From a virus: 21,561 nt of DNA. Each line of letters begins with the position of its first letter. Position 1 is the stretch's first letter. Shown here piece after piece: positions 1,502 through 20,592 of the stretch. The notes below the pieces were generated by a model. It saw nothing but the letters and a program-made list of their open reading frames with translations. It was not told the DNA's origin and did no database searches. Position numbers and translations under genes: made by a program. Location: positions 1 through 21,561 of the IMG/VR virus record IMGVR_UViG_3300025647_000327, one strand, 5' to 3'.

Positions 1502-2065
1502 TTAAAAGGCCCAACTGACAAATGAATATCTAGTGCCTTTTTTAACTTCAGTTACTTCGTGAGGAAACATAAAACAGCTTGGAAAAATGATAATATCACC
1601 AGTTTTTAACTTTAAATTTTTACCACAAATATTAAAATCTCCACCTGTGAAATTCTCATTCAAACAACCTACAAAGGATAACACGGGAATGCCTTTATGC
1701 TGACCATCAAATAAAGAATGAATATGATCGTAATGCATTCTCATCATTGTTCCTTTTTTATATTTATTAAATCGAATAGGAGAAAACTTAGTTGCTAAAT
1801 TACTTAATTTAGTTTCATTAGGATTTGCAAATTTAACATTATACTCTTGATAAGCTTTAACTAAAAAAGGAGTCATAGATTGTTGCATTTCAGAAGTAAT
1901 GGCTTGCACATCTAATTCTTTTTCTTTTTCTGAAGTCATAGAATTGGTTTCATTATTATGCCACTTATGTTTTTCCCAATCTCTTTTATCAATGGCTTTA
2001 ATAATTTCCTTGCACGTTTTTGCAGGAACTACATTATTTACATATACATAATCACTTACTTTCAT
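1502..2065 (-). CDS. 2OG-Fe(II) oxygenase, prolyl-4-hydroxylase-like (P4Hc type), third of three
   Basis: This 187-aa enzyme has an N-terminal helix region (VVPAKTCKEIIKAIDKRDWE) and a double-stranded beta-helix core. Iron ligands are H111 and D113 (RMHYDHIHS) and H169 (MFPHEVTEV), and 2OG is held by R179 (GTRYSFVSWAF). FTGGDFNI and LKTGDIIIFPS are typical core strands of P4Hc proteins. It differs in subfamily from the two genes before it, so the trio is not a simple recent triplication. A strong GGAGG ribosome site lies inside the end of the preceding gene. Possible targets include a virion protein or host protein; none is shown. Confidence 0.82.
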   Translation of the reverse strand: MKVSDYVYVNNVVPAKTCKEIIKAIDKRDWEKHKWHNNETNSMTSEKEKELDVQAITSEMQQSMTPFLVKAYQEYNVKFANPNETKLSNLATKFSPIRFNKYKKGTMMRMHYDHIHSLFDGQHKGIPVLSFVGCLNENFTGGDFNICGKNLKLKTGDIIIFPSCFMFPHEVTEVKKGTRYSFVSWAF

Positions 2066-2681
2066 AAATTTTCCTCCAGTTAAGTTCAGTTAAAGATTGT
2101 TCGGATCCTAAATTATCTTTTACAAAAGTATTAAAAGATAAACTAATCCTTACTTCGTCTGAAGTATTTCTAGGAACAGAATGACGTAAATGAGAAGGGA
2201 ACAAAATAAGTTCACCTGATACTAAAGGTAAATAAAATGTTTCACTATTAACTGAATTAAATTTCTCGAAGTTTAATTTAAGCATATCAAATTGTGTTTT
2301 AGAAAACATAATAGGTGGAAGATGTTTATCTATTCTAAAATAAAATACTCCAGATACAATAGAATTAGGATGAATATGTTCGTGGTGCACAGATCCCTTA
2401 GGATTGGTATTACACCAAGATTGAGTAATAATGAGTTGTTCTTTTGCCTGCATTATTTCTTTAGTAAATATATCTAAAGATTGTTGACAGAATTTTTTAA
2501 TATTATTTAATTGTTTCTTATCAAAAACATAAGAATCTTTAGAACGGAAATTTCCATTCATTCCATTGGGATCGTATTTAAGTTTTTCTACAAATGCTAA
2601 TTCTTTACTTAAGTTATTTTCATACTTAGTAATAAGTAGTGGTATAGCAAATAATTGTAATAGTTCTTTCTTTATCATCAC
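2052..2681 (-). CDS. 2OG-Fe(II) oxygenase family protein (PF13759/TIGR02466-like), second of three
   Basis: This 209-aa protein begins LLQLFAIPLLITKYEN, as in the family. SWCNTNPKGSVHHEHIHPNS (88-107) contains the W-x-N and the His cluster for iron, followed by IVSGVFYFRID. The C-terminal GELILFPSHLRHSVPRNTSD (156-175) gives distal H167, and EVRISLSFNTF gives 2OG-binding R178. This is the textbook order of the TIGR02466 group. The first codon at 2681 is GTG; the next, ATG at 2678, is probably the true start. It is under its own promoter and overlaps the third oxygenase gene by 14 bases. Substrate unknown. Confidence 0.8.
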   Translation of the reverse strand: MMIKKELLQLFAIPLLITKYENNLSKELAFVEKLKYDPNGMNGNFRSKDSYVFDKKQLNNIKKFCQQSLDIFTKEIMQAKEQLIITQSWCNTNPKGSVHHEHIHPNSIVSGVFYFRIDKHLPPIMFSKTQFDMLKLNFEKFNSVNSETFYLPLVSGELILFPSHLRHSVPRNTSDEVRISLSFNTFVKDNLGSEQSLTELNWRKIYESK

Positions 2682-2690
2682 ACAATAGAT

Positions 2691-2718
2691 GTTATACCAA
2701 ATTATAGGATTATGTAAA
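2691..2718 (-). promoter_or_regulatory. Extended -10 promoter before the second oxygenase gene
   Basis: In the 39-base gap the minus strand has -35 TTTACA (2713-2718), a 16-base spacer and -10 TATAAC (2691-2696) preceded by TGG (extended -10). The transcript would start near 2684, only a few bases before the GTG/ATG start (2681/2678), again leaving almost no leader. Confidence 0.55.
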
Positions 2719-2720
2719 GT

Positions 2721-3332
2721 TTAGTCAAAATTATACGCTAATGTTATTCTGGGATTATCTCCCTTATGTTTTTCAACAAAATGATGTAAATAGCTCCTAA
2801 ATATTAATAAACTATTATTTTCAGGTTTTATATCTGCTCTCTGATAAGACAGTTGATTAAAACAAACATTTCCTTTTAAAGGTTTCATATCTTCATATGG
2901 ATGTTTAAATATAATAGAAGAACGTTTATCAATATTTTTTTCTACTTGCAGATAATAAACTGCAGAAAAAGTAAAACCTGGATGTGTATGAAATTCTTGA
3001 TAATCATTTTTTTCATATATATTAAACCATCCTTCAGATGGCTTTTCATAAATATAATCAGAACCTAATTCATTATTAAATAGACTAACGTTTTTTGTTA
3101 TCTTTTCATTAAGAAATTTAAATTTTTTATCTTTAATTAAATCTAAAGTCCCTAAACTGTTATAGGTATCTACTAACCAATTAGATCCACCTTTTTTGGT
3201 TTTTTCTTTTATGTGTAGAATGTAATCTATTAGATCTTGTTTAATATTATCTGATAAGATATTTTCTTTGTAATAAAAACTAGTTGGAAAATATTGTATA
3301 ATTTCTTTCTGTGTCATCAATAAAGATAACAT
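2721..3332 (-). CDS. 2OG-Fe(II) oxygenase family protein (PF13759/TIGR02466-like), first of three
   Basis: This 203-aa protein (or 198 aa from the inner ATG at 3317, favoured by the promoter position) begins IIQYFPTSFYY, the usual start of this family (a 'phage/marine' 2OG oxygenase group). W102 and N104 precede the metal-binding FHTHPGFTFSAVYYLQV (114-130; H115, H117). The distal H183/H184 (SYLHHFV) and 2OG-binding R195 (NPRITLAYNFD) follow in order. These enzymes hydroxylate proteins or small molecules using 2-oxoglutarate and O2. The substrate is unknown. It has its own extended -10 promoter and is very AT-rich. Confidence 0.75.
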   Translation of the reverse strand: MLSLLMTQKEIIQYFPTSFYYKENILSDNIKQDLIDYILHIKEKTKKGGSNWLVDTYNSLGTLDLIKDKKFKFLNEKITKNVSLFNNELGSDYIYEKPSEGWFNIYEKNDYQEFHTHPGFTFSAVYYLQVEKNIDKRSSIIFKHPYEDMKPLKGNVCFNQLSYQRADIKPENNSLLIFRSYLHHFVEKHKGDNPRITLAYNFD

Positions 3333-3357: not shown

Positions 3358-4350
3358 TTAAGAAGAAATTCCACCGTGTGAACCAGATGCAGTTCCATAT
3401 TCACCATCAGTAGTAGTTAACATATCTCCAAAATCTATTGCATTACCAGTTGTTGTAATAGTAATATAATCTAAAGTATTTGTAACAACAGGATTTTGGC
3501 CTCCTCCAAATACTCCTCTAATAGAATTAGATACACCTCCCACACCAGCTCTTGTAACTGTTAAATCTCCAAAATCTGTGGCATTACCCGTTGATGCTAT
3601 AGTTATATATTGAATGACATTAATAACACCTGGTCCATCATTACCTCCAGCAAATACTCCTCTAGTATTAGAACTAACTCCACCTAAAATAATATTACCA
3701 GCTAATAAATCTCCAAAATCTGTGGCATTACCCGTTGATGCTATAGTTATATATTGAATGACATTAGTTCTTCCAGGGTTTCCTCCACCTCCAATTATTC
3801 CTCTTGTAGGAGAATTTACCATATTAGCTGATCCACCCACTGAATTTATTTGATCACCAAAATCTGCTGCATTACCAGTAGAAGCAATAGTCACATAATC
3901 CATTGTGTTGGAATTAGGATCTTGTCCACCACAGAAAACACCTCTAGTTTCAGAAGATGCTCCAGCTGATCTAGTTCTAGCTTGGGTTGTATCTCCAAAA
4001 TCTACTGCATTACCTTGAGTTGAAAATGTAAAATATTGAATTGAATTTGTTGTTGTTACGTCGTTTGGACTATATCCCATTGCGTTTAATCCTCTTGTAG
4101 TAGAGGCTGAACTTGATTGATTTGATGAAGCACCAGCTAATAAATCACCAAAATCTGTTGCGTTACCAGTAGAAGGTATATTTATCCACTGTATAGTATT
4201 TGTAGTAGCTGGAGATGCTGGAGATTCTCCTCCTATAAAAAATCCATAAGAAGATATATAATTAGGCCAATTATTTCCTAGCCTTGCATTGTAAACATCT
4301 TTAAGTTTCCAGATATATGAATTAGGTCCTGATGGTGATGGGAATGCCAT
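3358..4350 (-). CDS. Single six-repeat kelch-like propeller virion protein
   Basis: This 330-aa protein has the same design as the 328-aa one: a 36-residue attachment segment with SYIWKLKDVYNARLGNNWPN, then six ~48-residue repeats (about 37-327) and a closing SHGGISS. Repeats 4 and 5 carry identical ITIASTGNATDFGDL segments encoded by a perfect 61-bp DNA repeat. Its ATG shares one base with the stop of the 928-aa gene, with a GGAGG site, so the two are co-translated. It may be an alternative or shorter adhesin, or assemble with the large one. It is followed by a promoter and the first oxygenase gene. Confidence 0.7.
   Translation of the reverse strand: MAFPSPSGPNSYIWKLKDVYNARLGNNWPNYISSYGFFIGGESPASPATTNTIQWINIPSTGNATDFGDLLAGASSNQSSSASTTRGLNAMGYSPNDVTTTNSIQYFTFSTQGNAVDFGDTTQARTRSAGASSETRGVFCGGQDPNSNTMDYVTIASTGNAADFGDQINSVGGSANMVNSPTRGIIGGGGNPGRTNVIQYITIASTGNATDFGDLLAGNIILGGVSSNTRGVFAGGNDGPGVINVIQYITIASTGNATDFGDLTVTRAGVGGVSNSIRGVFGGGQNPVVTNTLDYITITTTGNAIDFGDMLTTTDGEYGTASGSHGGISS
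3562..3622 (-). repeat. 61-bp perfect direct repeat, copy 1
   Basis: This copy is identical over 61 bases to 3706-3766; the copies are exactly 144 bp (48 codons) apart. It lies in repeats 5 and 4 of the 330-aa propeller gene. Perfect identity, while neighbouring blades differ in DNA, points to recent duplication or gene conversion. Confidence 0.9.
3706..3766 (-). repeat. 61-bp perfect direct repeat, copy 2
   Basis: Second copy of the 61-bp repeat (see 3562-3622), in frame with it. Recombination between the two would delete or add exactly one blade without shifting the frame. Confidence 0.9.
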
Positions 4351-7136
4351 TATTGTAGTCCTCCGTGATTAGCTCCACCGCCACCTAAATTATTTCTTGC
4401 TTGAGTAGTATCTCCAAAGTCTATAGAATTACCAGTGGTTGCTATAGTTACATATTCCATAATATTTGTACTACTATTTAAGGCGACAACTCCTCTTGTA
4501 TTATTAGAAGCTGCTGCATTACTTGTTGACGTAGTTGTTAAATCTCCAAAATCGGTAGCATTACCTGTTGATGCAATAGTAACATATTGAATAATATTTG
4601 TAGAGGCACCTGGTTCTGAACTTCCTCCAGCTACAATTCCTCTTGTTGAAGATGAAAAACCAGCAGCATATCTGTTAGTTCCTAACAGATCACCAAAATC
4701 TGTAGCATTACCTGTTGCAGCTATTGTGACATAATCTATTACATTGGTATTTCCTGCTGGACCTCTTCCACCTAAAAACAAGCCTCTTGTTGGTGAACAA
4801 GCAGACGCTCTACTTCTTACACTTACAGTCATATCTCCAAAATCTATTGCATTACCAATTGATGCAATTGTAATATAATCAATTGTATTAACAATTGATC
4901 CTGGAAACTCTCCTCCTCCAAATATTCCTCTTGTAGAATTATTATTACAACCACTTGAAACAAAATATCTAGCTTGTGTTAAATCTCCAAAATCAAATGC
5001 ATTACCAGTGGTTTGCACATTAAAAGCGTCAATTACATTTGTTTGAGCAGGGGATGCTCCACCTGCAGAAATACCTCTAGTTGAAGTCATAGCACTTCCC
5101 ATATAACCTCTTATTGATGTTAAATCACCATAATCAACTGCATTCCCTGTAGATGAGATATCTATATAATCCATTGTGTTTACAAGAGTAGGAGTTCCTC
5201 CACCAAAATAAATTCCTCTATCAGGTTGAGCAGTTAACGTAGCCCCATTCAAGCCTCCGTGGCCGTTGGAAGAACCTCCCAGACTTGATTGAGCATTTGT
5301 TAAATCTCCAAAGTCTATAGCATTACCTGTTGATGCGATAGTGACATAATCTATTGTATTTGTAATAGGAGGTCCATTACCTCCTGCAAAAGTTCCCCGT
5401 GTTGAATTTGATGCACCAGCTCCTTTTCCTCTTGTTAATGTTAAATCTCCAAAATCTGCTGCATTACCAGCTGAAGCTATAGTTATGTAATCTATGACAT
5501 TTGAAACTGTAGGTGTTGTTTGACCTACTGCTATTACTCCTCGTGTAGAAGAAGAACTTGCCATACTTCCTCTAGAAGTAGAAGATAAATCTCCAAAATC
5601 GGTTGCATTACCTGTGGTTGCAATAGTTACATAATCCATAGTATTAACATTACCTGCAGGTCCTAGACCTGCTACAAACACACCTCTTGTTGTTGAATTT
5701 ACTCCTGATCCATTATATCTTGCAACAGTCAAATCTCCAAAATCTGCAAAATTTCCTAAAGAAGAATATTCAATATATTGAATAACATTATTAAGGGTAA
5801 AAGGAGCAACAGATAATTCACCTCCTCCAAAAATTCCTCTAGTAGAATTTCCAGCAGTATTAGGTCTATCATTAGCGGAAGTACTTAAATTTCCAAAATT
5901 GGCTGCGTTTCCTTTTGAAGTAACAGTAACATAATCTACAGTAGTTGAAGGAGAATTATAGTTTCCAGTAACTAGTTGTCTTGTTTCATTTGAAATACTT
6001 GCTGCTAAATTTCTATTTATTGTACAATCTCCAAAATCAGAAGCATTACCTGTGGTTGAAATTTTATAAGATTGAATAATATTAGTTGAAGCTGGAGTTT
6101 CTCCTGCTGCCATAATAGCTTGGTCTCCACTATTTAAAAATGTAGGAGGCCTTGTTCCTTGATACCCGTCGCTTAATCCTCCGTGGGCGTTACTGGTTGC
6201 TGCTCCTTGACCTCCTGGACCACCTAAGTTTCCAAAATCGGTTGCATTACCTGTAGTTGAAATAGTTACATATTGTTTGTTAGTAAGTGCTACAGCAGAA
6301 GCTACACCTCCTAATGAATATCCTTTTATTGAATTACTTGTTCCACTTCCTTCATATAAAGCTGAAGTTAAATCTCCAAAATCCGTTCCATTACCTCCTG
6401 AAGACATTGTAATAAATTCTATAACATTAGTGCTAGGGGTACCTCCCATAAATAATCCTCTTGTAGAAGAAGAGGTTCCTTGTAATGATCTTTTAGCTTG
6501 AGTTAGATCTCCGAAATCTGTTGTATTACCAGTCGTAGCTGTTGTTATAAATTGAATTGTATTGTGATTTGTTGTTGGACCAAATGTAAGCGATCCTCCA
6601 AAAATACCTCTTGTTGAACTAGATACCCCTGCCATAGCTTGTCCTGTTTGCACAGCTAAGTCTCCAAAGTCTAAAGCATTACCAAGTGAAGCTGTTGTTA
6701 CATAATCAATAACATTTTTCCCTGTTCCATTTCCTGCAAAAACACTTCTTGTAGAACTATTGGCTGATCCAATACCATATCTAGCTTCTGTTAAATTTCC
6801 AAAATCTGCAGCACTACCTAGTGAGCTAAATGTTACATAATCAATTATATTAGAAGAAGTTGGTGTGTAACCTCCTGCAAACAATCCTCTTGATAAAGAA
6901 CTAGCAGAGCCTAAAGCTCTTCTTGCAGAACTTAAATTTCCAAATACAGAAGTTTCTCCACCTGAAGTTAAATTAAAAGATTCTGCAACTGCTGAGTTGG
7001 TTGCAGGGAATCTAGTTCCACCTCCAAATAAACCCACAGCAGCATTGTTCGGCCAAGTCCCATTATAGATTTGGTCGTATACATCGCTTAATTTCCAAAC
7101 GCCTGCAGCGTTATCTAACCGTGGGAACTGAGCCAT
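4350..7136 (-). CDS. Giant triple-propeller tail protein (18 kelch-like repeats)
   Basis: This 928-aa protein has an N-terminal attachment segment (AAGVWKLSDVYDQIYNGTWP), then 18 repeats of 45-51 residues. They form three blocks of six: residues 35-321, 340-629 and 641-928. Each block ends with an HGGL closure (AHGGL, GHGGL, NHGGL), and short linkers join the blocks. The repeat core is GG, NVIDYVTIASTGNA, DFGDL, S-STRG. The block structure predicts three six-bladed beta-propellers. Likely role: multivalent host-surface binding on the tail. It follows the 116-aa gene, overlaps the 330-aa propeller gene by one base, and lies downstream of the sulfation-type genes. No enzyme motif is visible. 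Confidence 0.75.
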   Translation of the reverse strand: MAQFPRLDNAAGVWKLSDVYDQIYNGTWPNNAAVGLFGGGTRFPATNSAVAESFNLTSGGETSVFGNLSSARRALGSASSLSRGLFAGGYTPTSSNIIDYVTFSSLGSAADFGNLTEARYGIGSANSSTRSVFAGNGTGKNVIDYVTTASLGNALDFGDLAVQTGQAMAGVSSSTRGIFGGSLTFGPTTNHNTIQFITTATTGNTTDFGDLTQAKRSLQGTSSSTRGLFMGGTPSTNVIEFITMSSGGNGTDFGDLTSALYEGSGTSNSIKGYSLGGVASAVALTNKQYVTISTTGNATDFGNLGGPGGQGAATSNAHGGLSDGYQGTRPPTFLNSGDQAIMAAGETPASTNIIQSYKISTTGNASDFGDCTINRNLAASISNETRQLVTGNYNSPSTTVDYVTVTSKGNAANFGNLSTSANDRPNTAGNSTRGIFGGGELSVAPFTLNNVIQYIEYSSLGNFADFGDLTVARYNGSGVNSTTRGVFVAGLGPAGNVNTMDYVTIATTGNATDFGDLSSTSRGSMASSSSTRGVIAVGQTTPTVSNVIDYITIASAGNAADFGDLTLTRGKGAGASNSTRGTFAGGNGPPITNTIDYVTIASTGNAIDFGDLTNAQSSLGGSSNGHGGLNGATLTAQPDRGIYFGGGTPTLVNTMDYIDISSTGNAVDYGDLTSIRGYMGSAMTSTRGISAGGASPAQTNVIDAFNVQTTGNAFDFGDLTQARYFVSSGCNNNSTRGIFGGGEFPGSIVNTIDYITIASIGNAIDFGDMTVSVRSRASACSPTRGLFLGGRGPAGNTNVIDYVTIAATGNATDFGDLLGTNRYAAGFSSSTRGIVAGGSSEPGASTNIIQYVTIASTGNATDFGDLTTTSTSNAAASNNTRGVVALNSSTNIMEYVTIATTGNSIDFGDTTQARNNLGGGGANHGGLQ
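4353..7034 (-). repeat. Eighteen tandem ~144-bp coding repeats
   Basis: Tandem in-frame units of about 135-153 bp encode the propeller blades. The segment coding for G-N-A-x-D-F-G-D-L (plus strand: ctccaaaatc plus a conserved gcattacc) recurs once per unit and makes the repeat plain at DNA level. Two longer-than-usual units, at about 6120-6320 and 5217-5395, contain the inter-block linkers. Confidence 0.8.
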
Positions 7137-9954: not shown

Positions 9955-10941
9955 TTATTGAAGTCCGCCGTTTGCGTTAGAAGCAGTACCTCTAGTATAA
10001 CCAGCAGAAGATAAAAGATCTCCAAAATCAAGCGCGTTTCCAGTTGAGGCGATAGTTACATAATCAATTACATTATTACCTGCCCCACCTGCCCAAAGTG
10101 CTCTTGTCGCATTTGAAGTTGAAGAAGCTCCATTTCTTGCAACCGTTAGATCTCCAAAATCAGTTGCATTACCTGTTGATGCTATTGTGATATAATCGAT
10201 AACGTTAGTTGTAGGATATCCTCCACCAAAAACACCACGAGTTCCACTTGATGCATTATTTCCTCCCACACCTCTTCTTGCAACAGTTAAATCTCCAAAA
10301 TCTGTAGCATTGCCTGTTGTTGCTGTGGTGATAAATTCTATTACATTTGTTTCTGTATTACTACCATTAATTGCTCCTCCTGCTATACACATTCTTGTTC
10401 CTGAACAGGCAGAAGCAGGAGATCTCCATAATGTTTGAGTTGCATCTCCAAAGTCTGTTGCATTACCTGTGGTAGCCATAGTAACATAATCTATAATATT
10501 TACTATTGCAGCAGATGGATTAGTACCACTAACACCACAAGCAAAAATACCTCTTGTACTACTATTCCCACCAGCACCTTGATTGTGACCGCTAGTAGCA
10601 TCTCCAAAATCAACAGCATTACTTCCAACTAATATATTAGGTACATAGTCTATTACATTGGTGTATGGACCAGCTGCACCACTAGAGTTATCACCACAAA
10701 ATAAACCTCTTGTAGAAGAAGCACACCCTATTGTAAAATCTAGACTGTTTAAATCTCCAAAATCAGCTGCATTACCTGTCGTCGTTATTTGTACATATTC
10801 TATAGAGTTTCCAGAGCCACCTCCGAAAAGAGCAATGTCGCCAGATAATATAAGAATTTCTGGCCAAGCATTATCTTGAATATATTTGGATAAATTTTTT
10901 AAGTTCCAGATTCCAGAGTAAGGTCCACCAGGAGTAGGCAT
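9955..10941 (-). CDS. Single six-repeat kelch-like propeller virion protein (probable adhesin)
   Basis: This 328-aa protein has a 35-residue N-terminal attachment segment (SGIWNLKNLSKYIQDNAWPE) and six ~48-residue repeats (about 36-327). Each repeat shows a GG turn, a strand NVIDYVTIASTGNATDFGDL, and an ending S-x-TRG that leads into the next GG. Spacing of GG, an aromatic residue, the F of DFGD (in place of the kelch W) and R resembles kelch beta-propeller blades. The final repeat closes with ASNANGGLQ instead of TRG. It is likely a host-receptor-binding or display protein. The same N-terminal W-x-L...WP motif is present in the other two propeller genes. A strong AGGAGG site precedes the ATG. 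Confidence 0.7.
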   Translation of the reverse strand: MPTPGGPYSGIWNLKNLSKYIQDNAWPEILILSGDIALFGGGSGNSIEYVQITTTGNAADFGDLNSLDFTIGCASSTRGLFCGDNSSGAAGPYTNVIDYVPNILVGSNAVDFGDATSGHNQGAGGNSSTRGIFACGVSGTNPSAAIVNIIDYVTMATTGNATDFGDATQTLWRSPASACSGTRMCIAGGAINGSNTETNVIEFITTATTGNATDFGDLTVARRGVGGNNASSGTRGVFGGGYPTTNVIDYITIASTGNATDFGDLTVARNGASSTSNATRALWAGGAGNNVIDYVTIASTGNALDFGDLLSSAGYTRGTASNANGGLQ

Positions 10942-15212: not shown

Positions 15213-15332
15213 TTAAAATACTCCTTTAAAGTTAATTTTTTTACGATTATATACTTTTTTAGATTGTACCACCTTAGACTTATAACGTCTATCACTTAAC
15301 TTTTTTGCTATTGGGTTTGATTTTTTTGCCAT
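15213..15332 (-). CDS. 39-aa basic protein of a type common in marine phages
   Basis: This is a 39-aa, strongly basic protein starting MAKKSNPIAKKLSDRRYKSK and continuing VVQSKKVYNRKK. I recognise this pattern (a MAKKSNPxAK start, then YK-KVV--KK-Y-RK) as recurring in small genes of marine podo- and siphoviruses, though without a known role. It begins inside the 44-aa gene in another frame. An AAAGGAG site for the next gene lies within its last codons. High charge suggests nucleic-acid or capsid-interior contact. It was identified by reading the frame directly, and the recurrent pattern is the main support. Confidence 0.6.
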   Translation of the reverse strand: MAKKSNPIAKKLSDRRYKSKVVQSKKVYNRKKINFKGVF

Positions 15333-15426
15333 GTGTACGTTTAATAACCTTCTTATATTTACTCTTCCATTCAGAACCTAACCCTGGCTCTAATTGTCTT
15401 GCCATCTGTGATCTAGATATTACCAT
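15292..15426 (-). CDS. 44-aa basic protein whose N-terminus resembles the capsid protein's
   Basis: The ATG at 15426 overlaps the endolysin stop by 7 bases and opens a 44-codon frame. Residues 3-16 (ISRSQMARQLEPGL) match residues 3-16 of the major capsid protein (ISRSQLVKELEPGL) at 10 of 14 positions, with conservative changes at most of the others. The rest is lysine-rich (KSKYKKVIKR, KKIKPNSKKVK). Its 3' part overlaps the next small gene in a different frame by 41 bases. The repeated N-terminal peptide argues for a real protein. Its function is unknown; a capsid- or scaffold-contacting peptide is possible. Confidence 0.5.
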   Translation of the reverse strand: MVISRSQMARQLEPGLGSEWKSKYKKVIKRTHGKKIKPNSKKVK

Positions 15427-15875
15427 GGTGTATATTTAGTTTTATCCTCTTCTTTAATAGCTCGAAGGGACATATTTCGGTTCTCGCCTGGGTTCCAAGA
15501 GACATGAACCCAGCCGCTATCGGGCTCACCATCTCGATAAAATTCGAGAATTAATTGATCATATTCTAAATTATCTTTGACCCATTGCGCTAGGACTTTA
15601 TTATCAACGCCTACTACTTCTATATCGGCCGCCTTACCTTCGGTATGTTGAGAAGTTATTTTAGATCCAATAGCAATACATAATTCTGCAGATCTATATC
15701 CTGAAGATATAATTACAGGTGCTTCAAAATGAGAACGAATAGGTTGTAATACATTTACACATAATGCTTTTAAATTATCTATATGAGCGGGAGAAGGATT
15801 GTTAGAAATTCCTTTTCTTTCCGCTGTTTGTGATTTAACTAATTCACTTAACTGGAAGTTTGCTGATAGTTTCAT
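15420..15875 (-). CDS. Peptidase M15-family endolysin (Peptidase_M15_3 type)
   Basis: This 151-aa enzyme probably cuts peptidoglycan peptide cross-links to lyse the host. The N-terminal part (FQLSELVKSQTAERKGI) is the helical lead-in typical of the M15_3 family. The catalytic core shows SGYRS (58-62), the zinc-binding H77 and D84 (SQHTEGKAADIE), and the third zinc ligand H124 within GWVHVSW. Length and motif order match small M15 phage endolysins such as the T5 type. It has no signal peptide, so release would need a holin or a similar membrane partner. It lies at the end of the candidate spanin genes and overlaps the next small gene by 7 bases. Confidence 0.85.
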   Translation of the reverse strand: MKLSANFQLSELVKSQTAERKGISNNPSPAHIDNLKALCVNVLQPIRSHFEAPVIISSGYRSAELCIAIGSKITSQHTEGKAADIEVVGVDNKVLAQWVKDNLEYDQLILEFYRDGEPDSGWVHVSWNPGENRNMSLRAIKEEDKTKYTPW

Positions 15876-16689: not shown

Positions 16690-17100
16690 CTATCTGCATT
16701 TCCACCTTCTTCTAGCTTGTCGTAATCTTGAATTTGGGTCTTTAGCTGCTTTGGGAAACATTTTCATTTGCCCTGCTGATCTAGCACAAAAAGATTTTCT
16801 TCTTGCAGCTCTTTTGGGACCTGGATTACTTTCTGTTACTGCTGTTTTTAATTTACTTCCAGGATTTTTTCTTCTGTAAGCCATAACTCCAGCTTGAGTC
16901 ATTCCCGCTCCTGCTTTAGTAGACCTAAAATTTTTTTTATTTCTAGGAGGCATTCCTCCTTTAGCAGCACCTACTGGCTTTACTTCTTGTTCTTCAACGT
17001 ATTCTTGTAAGGTGCCGTTATTTTTACCACTTGGTAATTGTGAAATATTTGCATATTGATCCAAGACAGTTCCTGGTATAGCAAACGGATTTCTAGCCAT
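16690..17100 (-). CDS. DUF6321-type basic protein
   Basis: This is a 136-aa, strongly basic protein. Residues ~66-136 match the DUF6321 pattern I know from T4-like and T7-like marine phages: GMTQAGVMAYRRKNPGSKLK, then TAVTE, RRKSFCARSAGQ, AKDPNSRLRQARRRWKC. Two cysteines (in KSFCAR and WKC) frame the end of the domain. The first ~55 residues are a polar linker containing GGMPPRNKKNF. The high K/R content suggests nucleic-acid contact, for example with packaged DNA, but this is inference. Its stop is 3 bases before the next ATG. The function of the domain is not established. Confidence 0.75.
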   Translation of the reverse strand: MARNPFAIPGTVLDQYANISQLPSGKNNGTLQEYVEEQEVKPVGAAKGGMPPRNKKNFRSTKAGAGMTQAGVMAYRRKNPGSKLKTAVTESNPGPKRAARRKSFCARSAGQMKMFPKAAKDPNSRLRQARRRWKCR

Positions 17101-17498: not shown

Positions 17499-18425
17499 TT
17501 ATGCTCCTATAGAACCGAAGATTCCTCTAGGGTCAGACCAACCGAAGCTGTATCTTTCTCTAGCTTTAAATCTAACGTTTCCAGTATCAAAATCACCTTC
17601 AATGGCAGTTTTGATAGCGCTTCTTACAAAGTGCTTCATACCATTTGGTGCATCAGTAAGGATAAAGAAAGCATCAGTGTCAGTCAAGAAATGATTAACT
17701 CTGTAACCTTCTGGTACCATACCCATGTTCATCATCGCGTTGATATCGTTTTTAGCGAACGCGTTTGATCCACCAGGTGTAGTTGATAGAGGAGATTTTA
17801 AGATTCTCTCAGCAGTAAATTGCAATTCTTTTGGAATTACTAATTTTCTACCCATAGTAGCAATCTTTAATCCTCTTTCGTCAACAAATGCTGCGATGTC
17901 AATCAGAGACTGCTCTAAAGAAGTTTCTGATAAGTCAGCTGCTGTAGACAATATGTTTCTGAAAGATCCACCATTAGACAGAGGGTGATCGTTAGCTAAT
18001 AAAGCTTTTCCGTCACCACCTGGGTATGATGAACTAAAACCATTGTTTAGTACATTAGCCGCAGTGATTTGTTTAGTTTGAGACATTGAACGAGCAAGTG
18101 CTCTAGTGTATCTAGATGCCAATCTGTCGTACAAGTTATCTTCAATAGCTTCCTCAGTAATAGCAAAAGCAAGTGCTACTGTATTATGAGTGTATCTAGA
18201 AGTGTAAGCTTCAGATGCTTGGTCAAAATTAACCATTGCACCTTCAGATTTTACTGCCGCAGCACCAAAACCTGTTAGCATTACTTCTTCTTCGAAAGCT
18301 CTGTCAGATGACTCAGTCATGAAGATTTCTGCATGTTCATTGTCATATCTGTTATATTCCAGGCCGAATAGTGCATTCAATCCTGGCTCTAGTTCTTTAA
18401 CTAGTTGTGATCGTGATATAGCCAT
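17499..18425 (-). CDS. Major capsid protein (HK97-like fold)
   Basis: This 308-aa protein forms the icosahedral shell. Position after a GroES, a scaffold and a decoration-type gene, length near the usual 300-350 aa, and style of sequence all agree. There is an N-terminal helical arm (ISRSQLVKELEPGLNALFG), an E-loop-like region (residues ~50-75, GFGAAAVKSEGAMVNFDQA), a long 'spine' helix (about 90-125, AITEEAIEDNLYDRLASRY onwards), a P-domain with ANVLNNGF and LLANDHPLSNGGSF, then a C-terminal part ending FGWSDPRGIFGSIGA. It resembles capsid proteins of marine podoviruses and Mu-gpT-like heads. It has the best-looking ribosome site of the region (AGGAGAATAAATG). A strong hairpin follows the stop. 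Confidence 0.88.
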   Translation of the reverse strand: MAISRSQLVKELEPGLNALFGLEYNRYDNEHAEIFMTESSDRAFEEEVMLTGFGAAAVKSEGAMVNFDQASEAYTSRYTHNTVALAFAITEEAIEDNLYDRLASRYTRALARSMSQTKQITAANVLNNGFSSSYPGGDGKALLANDHPLSNGGSFRNILSTAADLSETSLEQSLIDIAAFVDERGLKIATMGRKLVIPKELQFTAERILKSPLSTTPGGSNAFAKNDINAMMNMGMVPEGYRVNHFLTDTDAFFILTDAPNGMKHFVRSAIKTAIEGDFDTGNVRFKARERYSFGWSDPRGIFGSIGA

Positions 18426-19566: not shown

Positions 19567-20592
19567 CTATTGTACCTCCTTCACGTATTTAGCGTATTCT
19601 TCTAGTGGCACCCCTAATTTTTTGGCAATAGCCACCTGTGATTTGGTGAGTCTCACAGTTTTGCGTCCTTGCTGTTGTCTTCCAGCACTAGCAACTTGTT
19701 GGACGGGTTCTCTTCGTTGCTCTTGTACAGAAAACTTATGAGGGAAATTTTCCTTCATTCGTTTGTCTATTTCATTATAATACTCTTCACTTTCAACATC
19801 AACACCCATACCCACTAGATCTTCATGGATGGTGAAAGCGGCATTAGTCATGATTTTATCATTACCAAACCAAGTATTCTTTTGAGCCCAGGACTTAGCT
19901 TTTGGGCTAGGTTCTGGAGCCACAGGTTTAGCTCTTTGCTGTTCCTGTATCTCAGAAGCTTGTATTTTTTTCTGCTCTTCTAATTGTCTTAATCGTTCCG
20001 CACGATCAGCCATTTGCAATTTAGCTTTTTCTTTTTGCACTGCAAGCTGTGTTAGTTCGTCATTCGCTTGCATAATGGCATCAGTATCATTAGCTTCAAT
20101 AGCAGATTTTAATTTAATTCGTACTTGTTCTCTTTGTGCATCTACTCTTGCATCAAATTCTTTCAAGTATTGTTCATCAGCACTATCTAATCTTTTTTCT
20201 GATGTTTCATATTTTTTATGAAGACCTCGTGCAAACTCTAATGCTGCTTGCTCTCTACGTTCTGCTTCTCTATATCTTCTAGTTAATTTATCTATTCTTT
20301 TTTGAACCGATTCAGATATTTGATTCAGATCGTCTGCTGCTTCTTCTTTGGTTTCTTTTTTTGGATTGGGATTACTTGGAGTAGGTCTGTCTGTTTCTTC
20401 TTCTACTTCAATTTTTTCCTTTGTTTCTTCTTTATTATGCGAAGTATATCCTAAATCAACTTCCCCTACATTTAAGGTAGGTTCTTTTGATTTTTCTTCT
20501 TTAGTCTCTATTTGGATGTCTTGTTCTTTTACATCATCCGTATCTAAGTCAACTTGTGATTCGAACTTAGATGTTTCTTTTTCTTCTAACAT
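19567..20592 (-). CDS. Capsid scaffolding protein
   Basis: This 341-aa, highly charged protein lies two genes before the major capsid gene, the normal place for a scaffold. Residues 1-88 are a low-complexity acidic/lysine-rich region and look disordered. Residues 90-222 are a long coiled-coil helix rich in E, K, R, Q and A. Residues 234-285 form a more conserved-looking segment (KSWAQKNTWFGND, then IHEDLV, SEEYYNEIDKRM). The C-terminus ends in a short helical element, LTKSQVAIAKKLGVPLEEY, that resembles the capsid-binding helix-turn-helix ends of phage scaffolds. No protease domain is visible. An AGGAG site precedes the ATG. The call rests on composition and position, not on a catalytic motif. 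Confidence 0.75.
   Translation of the reverse strand: MLEEKETSKFESQVDLDTDDVKEQDIQIETKEEKSKEPTLNVGEVDLGYTSHNKEETKEKIEVEEETDRPTPSNPNPKKETKEEAADDLNQISESVQKRIDKLTRRYREAERREQAALEFARGLHKKYETSEKRLDSADEQYLKEFDARVDAQREQVRIKLKSAIEANDTDAIMQANDELTQLAVQKEKAKLQMADRAERLRQLEEQKKIQASEIQEQQRAKPVAPEPSPKAKSWAQKNTWFGNDKIMTNAAFTIHEDLVGMGVDVESEEYYNEIDKRMKENFPHKFSVQEQRREPVQQVASAGRQQQGRKTVRLTKSQVAIAKKLGVPLEEYAKYVKEVQ

Follow-up and report, generated by a model that had tools for sequence, protein, structure and literature searches.

A 44-aa lysine-rich protein of a marine podovirus is encoded in the window, by which we mean the whole 21,561-nucleotide stretch of DNA analysed here (IMG/VR virus record IMGVR_UViG_3300025647_000327). 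Its start nearly duplicates residues 1–16 of the major capsid protein (MCP) of the same genome. Judged from sequence comparisons with related phages, this shared start is a portable, strictly N-terminal tag, selected at the protein level and separable from the C-part that follows it. In the simplest interpretation the tag would serve as an address label during assembly or loading of the phage head, and we tentatively regard the 44-aa protein, at somewhat less than an even chance, as a small basic accessory protein with a head-targeting tag in residues 1–12 to 1–17. The features on which the argument turns are the following.

15292..15426, minus strand: 44-aa lysine-rich protein, the EPGL-type member of its family; 77 IMG/VR loci have homologues, and HTVC023P_gp50 is a homologue of the general form
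15376..15426, minus strand: the tag, residues 1–17 of the 44-aa protein, MVISRSQMARQLEPGLG (invariance of R5 and Q11; AlphaFold helix)
15295..15375, minus strand: variable lysine-rich C-part of the 44-aa protein, residues 18–44
15213..15332, minus strand: 39-aa basic ORF beginning MAKKSNPIAKKL (phrog_20887), which overlaps the 44-aa ORF
15420..15875, minus strand: M15 peptidase endolysin (Pfam Peptidase_M15_3), whose stop overlaps the start of the 44-aa gene
16690..17100, minus strand: 136-aa basic protein with a DUF6321 C-end; a similar small protein bears the tag in locus L394
17499..18425, minus strand: MCP, 308 aa (Pfam Phage_capsid_4; phrog_371, major head protein)
18375..18425, minus strand: N-terminal arm of the MCP, MAISRSQLVKELEPGLN, the other copy of the motif; the 22 N-terminal residues are identical in 78 of 84 relatives
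19567..20592, minus strand: scaffold candidate, inferred from position and composition, the proposed partner of the tag

The genes near the 44-aa ORF are all on the minus strand. The window also encodes an SU10-type adaptor. Ranked by MCP, Pelagibacter phage HTVC023P (74%), DSL-LC04, 023Pt_psg01, and HTVC027P are the closest phages with annotation. Long proteins built of repeated TGNATDFGDL..TRGVFxGG units are encoded at 3358–7136 and 9955–10941; from sequence alone, these are probably tail or surface proteins that adopt a beta-repeat fold. At 1502–3332, three adjacent genes resemble, by eye, genes annotated as 2OG-Fe(II) oxygenase-like in HTVC023P. In PHROGs, several long phage families end in the DUF6321 segment seen at 16690–17100, which by this distribution also behaves as a portable module.

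The 44-aa ORF has an ATG start and the sequence MVISRSQMARQLEPGLGSEWKSKYKKVIKRTHGKKIKPNSKKVK; residues 1–17 of the MCP are those of the arm given above, and the longer MCP start is MAISRSQLVKELEPGLNALFG. Residues 3–16 of the two proteins align without a shift, 10 of the 14 being identical, as the preliminary description had noted, and M/L, R/K, and Q/E are conservative changes between the two starts. When N-terminal residues 2–17 were scored with BLOSUM62 for the 561 predicted-protein pairs in the window, this pair reached 54 and the runner-up 17, and of 20 million composition-matched random pairs none reached 54; together the pair scores and the random pairs rule out a chance likeness. The patches of similar DNA that had been reported, GATCACA and TAGAGCCAGG, are indeed present, but they amount to no more than the shared residues imply: codons are identical at 4 of the 10 identical residues, against 4.84 expected from codon usage. 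Because codon identity does not exceed this expectation, the patches are no evidence of recent copying, and the same count rules out a recent DNA duplication or gene conversion from the 5′ end of the MCP gene. On the codon evidence, the likeness is one of conservation at the protein level and not a recent DNA copy.

A truncated MCP or a capsid duplicate of the Ccm kind was also ruled out, since the match ends within residues 1–26 and the remainder of the 44-aa protein, with 11 Lys in 28 residues, is unrelated to the MCP, just as it had first been described. The last codons of the C-part overlap the next ORF (15213–15332) in a different frame. Pfam and PHROGs gave no match for the 44-aa protein itself, and no description of the motif was found in the open-licence papers searched. 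AlphaFold predicts a short helix at residues 5–12 of the 44-aa protein with modest confidence; its model of the MCP (pLDDT 37) was unusable, and no sequence relative of the MCP was found in the PDB at E up to 1.

The 44-aa gene is genuine and belongs to a lysine-rich family located downstream of the M15 endolysin. Every one of the 27 MCP-bearing loci whose sequence extends over the stretch 3′ of the endolysin has an intact small tagged gene, a count that includes the window and HTVC023P. A window-specific oddity or a disrupted ORF is ruled out, as the gene is conserved and intact across relatives. The small tagged gene usually adjoins the endolysin, lying 544 bases away in one locus and ~2.4 kb away in another (L049). 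In the window it is directly downstream of the endolysin on the same strand, as in most relatives, and its product combines an M-x-I-[STG]-R-x-[QS]-[MI]-x-x-Q-[ILV] start with a Lys-rich remainder. The HTVC023P gp50 protein of 46 aa occupies the same place and starts with MAITRGQISKQVEGKLRGAR.

The general form of the small-protein start is M-x-I-[STG]-R-[SA]-Q-[MI]-x-x-Q-[IV]-[ED]-G-K-L-R-G-A, without EPGL in most relatives. The subfamily of the window (77 loci fetched, 46 distinct starts) has QLEPGLG where the others have Q[IV][ED]GKLRG, and the GKLRGA segment that follows the core in the majority form is absent from the 44-aa protein, which has EPGLGS instead. From this comparison, the 44-aa protein belongs to the HTVC023P_gp50-like group at the family level only, and its subfamily is distinct. 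In 121 distinct gene starts R5 and Q11 never change and I3 almost never does, even as the codons vary. The small-protein arm varies, unlike the nearly fixed MCP arm, and does not follow the rare MCP variants. The small-protein start is not simply a second copy of the capsid arm, as had been proposed: most relatives lack EPGL and vary while the MCP arm hardly does. In two loci (L007, at 4105–4632, and L093) a 176-aa NKEKISE-rich ORF, possibly a homing endonuclease, is inserted between the endolysin and the small gene, which then starts with GTG and not ATG.

At least five different kinds of C-part occur behind the tag or close variants of it, the lysine-rich tail of the 44-aa protein being one. 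The counterpart of the downstream 39-aa basic ORF (phrog_20887) is fused in frame to the tag in L135, L155, and, in the GKLRGA form, L049; the tag is followed by a tail ending in YYRDLVK in L154 and by 162–304-aa EF-hand-like proteins in L151–L159, and in L394 a shorter tag precedes a protein resembling the window's DUF6321 protein. When IMG/VR was scanned with the start codon included in the pattern, the matches listed included MCPs, small basic proteins, and 300–900-aa proteins, e.g., those starting with MAITRTQIAKQLLANGGRIGF and MPISRSQMERQLRMGGGIMQVAPRQEYFLGG. When the start codon was not required, all 93 matches were located at the extreme N-terminus, although many of these sequences are related and do not represent 93 independent events. 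In 257 billion bases of prokaryote genomes there was one tag match only, on a 62-kb contig from a Pelagibacteraceae single-cell genome, where the neighbouring ORFs resemble those of these phages. The tag is a short N-terminal sequence common to otherwise unrelated proteins of one phage. The idea that the arm is a binding tag is partly supported, in that protein-level selection, separability, and the variety of basic or structural C-parts are what would be expected of a binding or targeting tag.

A motif at the other end of proteins was also observed. The sequence [YF][YI]xD[LI][LIVM]K? (YYGDLLK, YIKDLL, YYKDIL) closes many unrelated small proteins and may, from its placement, be a second, C-terminal tag; its carriers include L013, L015, L026, L027, L084, and L124–L127, and genomes G019–G022 and G024–G027. 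It occurs 17 times at the C-terminus and 12 times internally in 15 genomes, and was not found in the five HTVC027P-type genomes or in the window.

Exactly two tagged ORFs, the MCP and one other, are present in 16 of 18 long contigs or isolates. In the two exceptions only the MCP is tagged, and the contigs end ~700 bases past it. The second carrier in the HTVC023P lineage is the small protein and in the HTVC027P lineage a long protein, and the two never occur together; most of the 18 genomes were picked for carrying one or other tag, and the mutual exclusion is less biased than the presence. Searching 11 whole records with an exact pattern gave a result concordant with the count of two per genome, and the reversed control had no match; the exact pattern misses HTVC027P_gp82 and the GTG-started gene of G019, both of which are found by a looser local search. 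In DSL-LC04 and 023Pt_psg01 the pattern search placed the motif on the MCP only, which counts against reading the tag as a head label with one partner. The preliminary description had named relatives with the arm and without an intact small gene as evidence against its proposal. Within the lineage of the window the gene is intact at every covering locus, but in the HTVC027P lineage the same arm occurs without such a small gene, and there a different protein bears a related tag. Overall the initial interpretation is partly supported, with a change: the unit is a portable N-terminal tag common to the MCP and one partner per genome, and the 44-aa protein is one carrier.

The long tagged protein of HTVC027P-type phages (300–800 aa) heads an ejection-like cassette. 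Its untagged homologue in DSL-LC04 is annotated as a tail tape measure protein and is encoded three genes before one annotated as a DNA transfer protein. Several long tagged proteins, for example those of L242, L304, L309, and L326, have in common a C-terminal segment like AVRAAGGGSVDKGADKMYxxMKxLE, which is weakly similar to tail tape measure families.

The links between the three carriers differ in strength. Of the hundreds of ORF starts in each genome of the small type, that of the small protein matches the MCP arm best, scoring 27–54 overall and 52–54 in EPGL-type genomes, and unrelated ORF starts reach at most 21; the G019 protein was missed in this ranking because of the GTG start of its gene. 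The long proteins score 20–25 against the MCP arm, at the edge of the background, with HTVC027P_gp82 outside the top three, and their tags resemble the small proteins more than they resemble the MCP arm. On these MCP-arm scores, the small-protein link to the MCP is firm and the link between the MCP and the long proteins is weak when taken alone, and the small and long proteins are connected through the core I[ST]RxQ[MI]x[KR]QL. The MCP arms of more distant phages have diverged (MAAISRAQQLKELLPGLNALFG in Pag-Yong1 and MAMNRANFAKMLEPGLNTLFG in CRP-901), and these arms suggest that the MCP is the older carrier of the motif.

As a head-targeting signal, the tag would fold as a short amphipathic helix and dock where the MCP arm itself is recognised, most likely on the scaffold's C-terminal helix. 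The tagged protein would thereby enter the procapsid alongside the MCP, which would place the lysine-rich tail within the head, in contact with DNA or the acidic scaffold. By analogy with known phages, the tag perhaps mimics the capsid arm helix that scaffolds bind: the scaffolds of SPP1 and 80alpha bind the N-terminal helix of the MCP (PMC6813328, PMC5644958), an interaction generalised in PMC12749128, and T4 internal proteins bear short N-terminal capsid-targeting sequences (PMC5694885). The scaffold candidate of the window is encoded upstream of the MCP with two genes between, is 21% acidic, and ends in the conserved sequence LTKSQVAIAKKLGVPLEEYAKYVKE. This ending hardly varies among phages that have the arm and is diverged in CRP-901, Pag-Yong1, QDWS535, and RW. 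This co-conservation is not independent evidence, because overall relatedness gives the same pattern, and the location of the small gene beside the endolysin and not the head genes speaks against a head tag. It is possible, though doubtful, that SAR11-type podoviruses load exactly one kind of cargo protein into the procapsid of each phage, a small basic protein or a long ejection-type protein, by means of an address peptide modelled on the arm, and that lineages swapped the cargo and kept the tag.

The long tagged protein bears on two other explanations of the shared start. The tag could be a signal for another phage machine, such as the portal, the adaptor, the tail or ejection assembly, or a maturation protease, with the MCP likeness being partly convergent. 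The place of the long protein in an ejection-like cassette would suit such a signal, as would the core I-[ST]-R-x-Q-[MI]-x-[KR]-Q-L of the small and long proteins, to which EPGL is added only in the subfamily of the window. We nevertheless think it unlikely, since convergence on a short core would not produce so close a match between the EPGL-type proteins and the MCP, and the motif count is constant with the MCP always one of the two. Alternatively, the small protein could be an assembly regulator, absent from the finished virion, that competes with the MCP for the scaffold or with the scaffold for the MCP, and this competition would tune head size or timing. The same resemblance of tag to MCP fits a regulator, but the second carrier in the sister phages, with its length and its position at the head of the ejection-like cassette, looks like a virion component, and we consider a regulatory role quite improbable.

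The shared start could also result from selection not for binding but for translation initiation in late genes or for stable N-termini of their products. In the small family, residue 2 is without exception A, T, V, P, or G, residues compatible with methionine removal, and synonymous codon diversity among 27 MCPs is reduced to 0.23 in codons 1–15 versus 0.43 beyond codon 30, so that the arm-coding DNA (18375–18425) is unusually constrained, perhaps for translation initiation. As an account of the tag this is very unlikely, given that R5, Q7, and Q11 are kept while the codons vary, and that only two proteins per genome are tagged while other late genes have no tag. That the 44-aa protein is a lysis-associated peptide is hardly credible: it is the immediate neighbour of the endolysin, with overlapping start and stop codons, but it has no hydrophobic segment, the tagged protein of HTVC027P is encoded far from the endolysin, and in L049 the small gene itself lies well away from it.

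HTVC023P-type pelagiphages are widespread in the ocean (PMC9599517), and most of their small proteins are without annotation. If the head-targeting reading is true, a tag marking the MCP and one partner is a testable handle on unknown head-assembly proteins, and it might serve as a short packaging signal. The nearest annotated counterpart of the 44-aa protein, HTVC023P_gp50 (QGZ17679.1), resembles it in its place after the M15 peptidase, its N-terminal core, and its basic tail, but has VEGKLRG in place of LEPGLGS and is annotated as a hypothetical protein. The systems in which a scaffold binds an N-arm helix of the MCP (SPP1 gp13/gp11, 80alpha, P22, and phi29) are alike in that an N-terminal MCP segment, here a plausible short helix, would be involved, and in that a scaffold candidate with a conserved C-terminal end is found upstream of the MCP. 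We know of no case in SPP1, 80alpha, P22, or phi29 where the MCP arm is repeated on a second protein. The CpmB protein of SaPIs uses the MCP–scaffold interface (PMC5644958), and Ccm is described as an MCP homologue that alters the shell (PMC8569155); both are encoded by satellites that parasitise a helper, whereas the 44-aa gene is the phage's own and its product is MCP-like only over its initial 12–17 residues.

The closest functional parallel of the tag would be the T4 capsid-targeting sequence, likened here by mode of action and not by sequence. Both are short N-terminal peptides common to otherwise unrelated proteins and portable to other sequences (PMC5694885). In contrast to the tag described here, which is found on the MCP and one other protein, the T4 sequence is carried by several internal proteins and is removed by proteolysis; if the parallel is true, the idea of a capsid-targeting sequence extends to these podoviruses.
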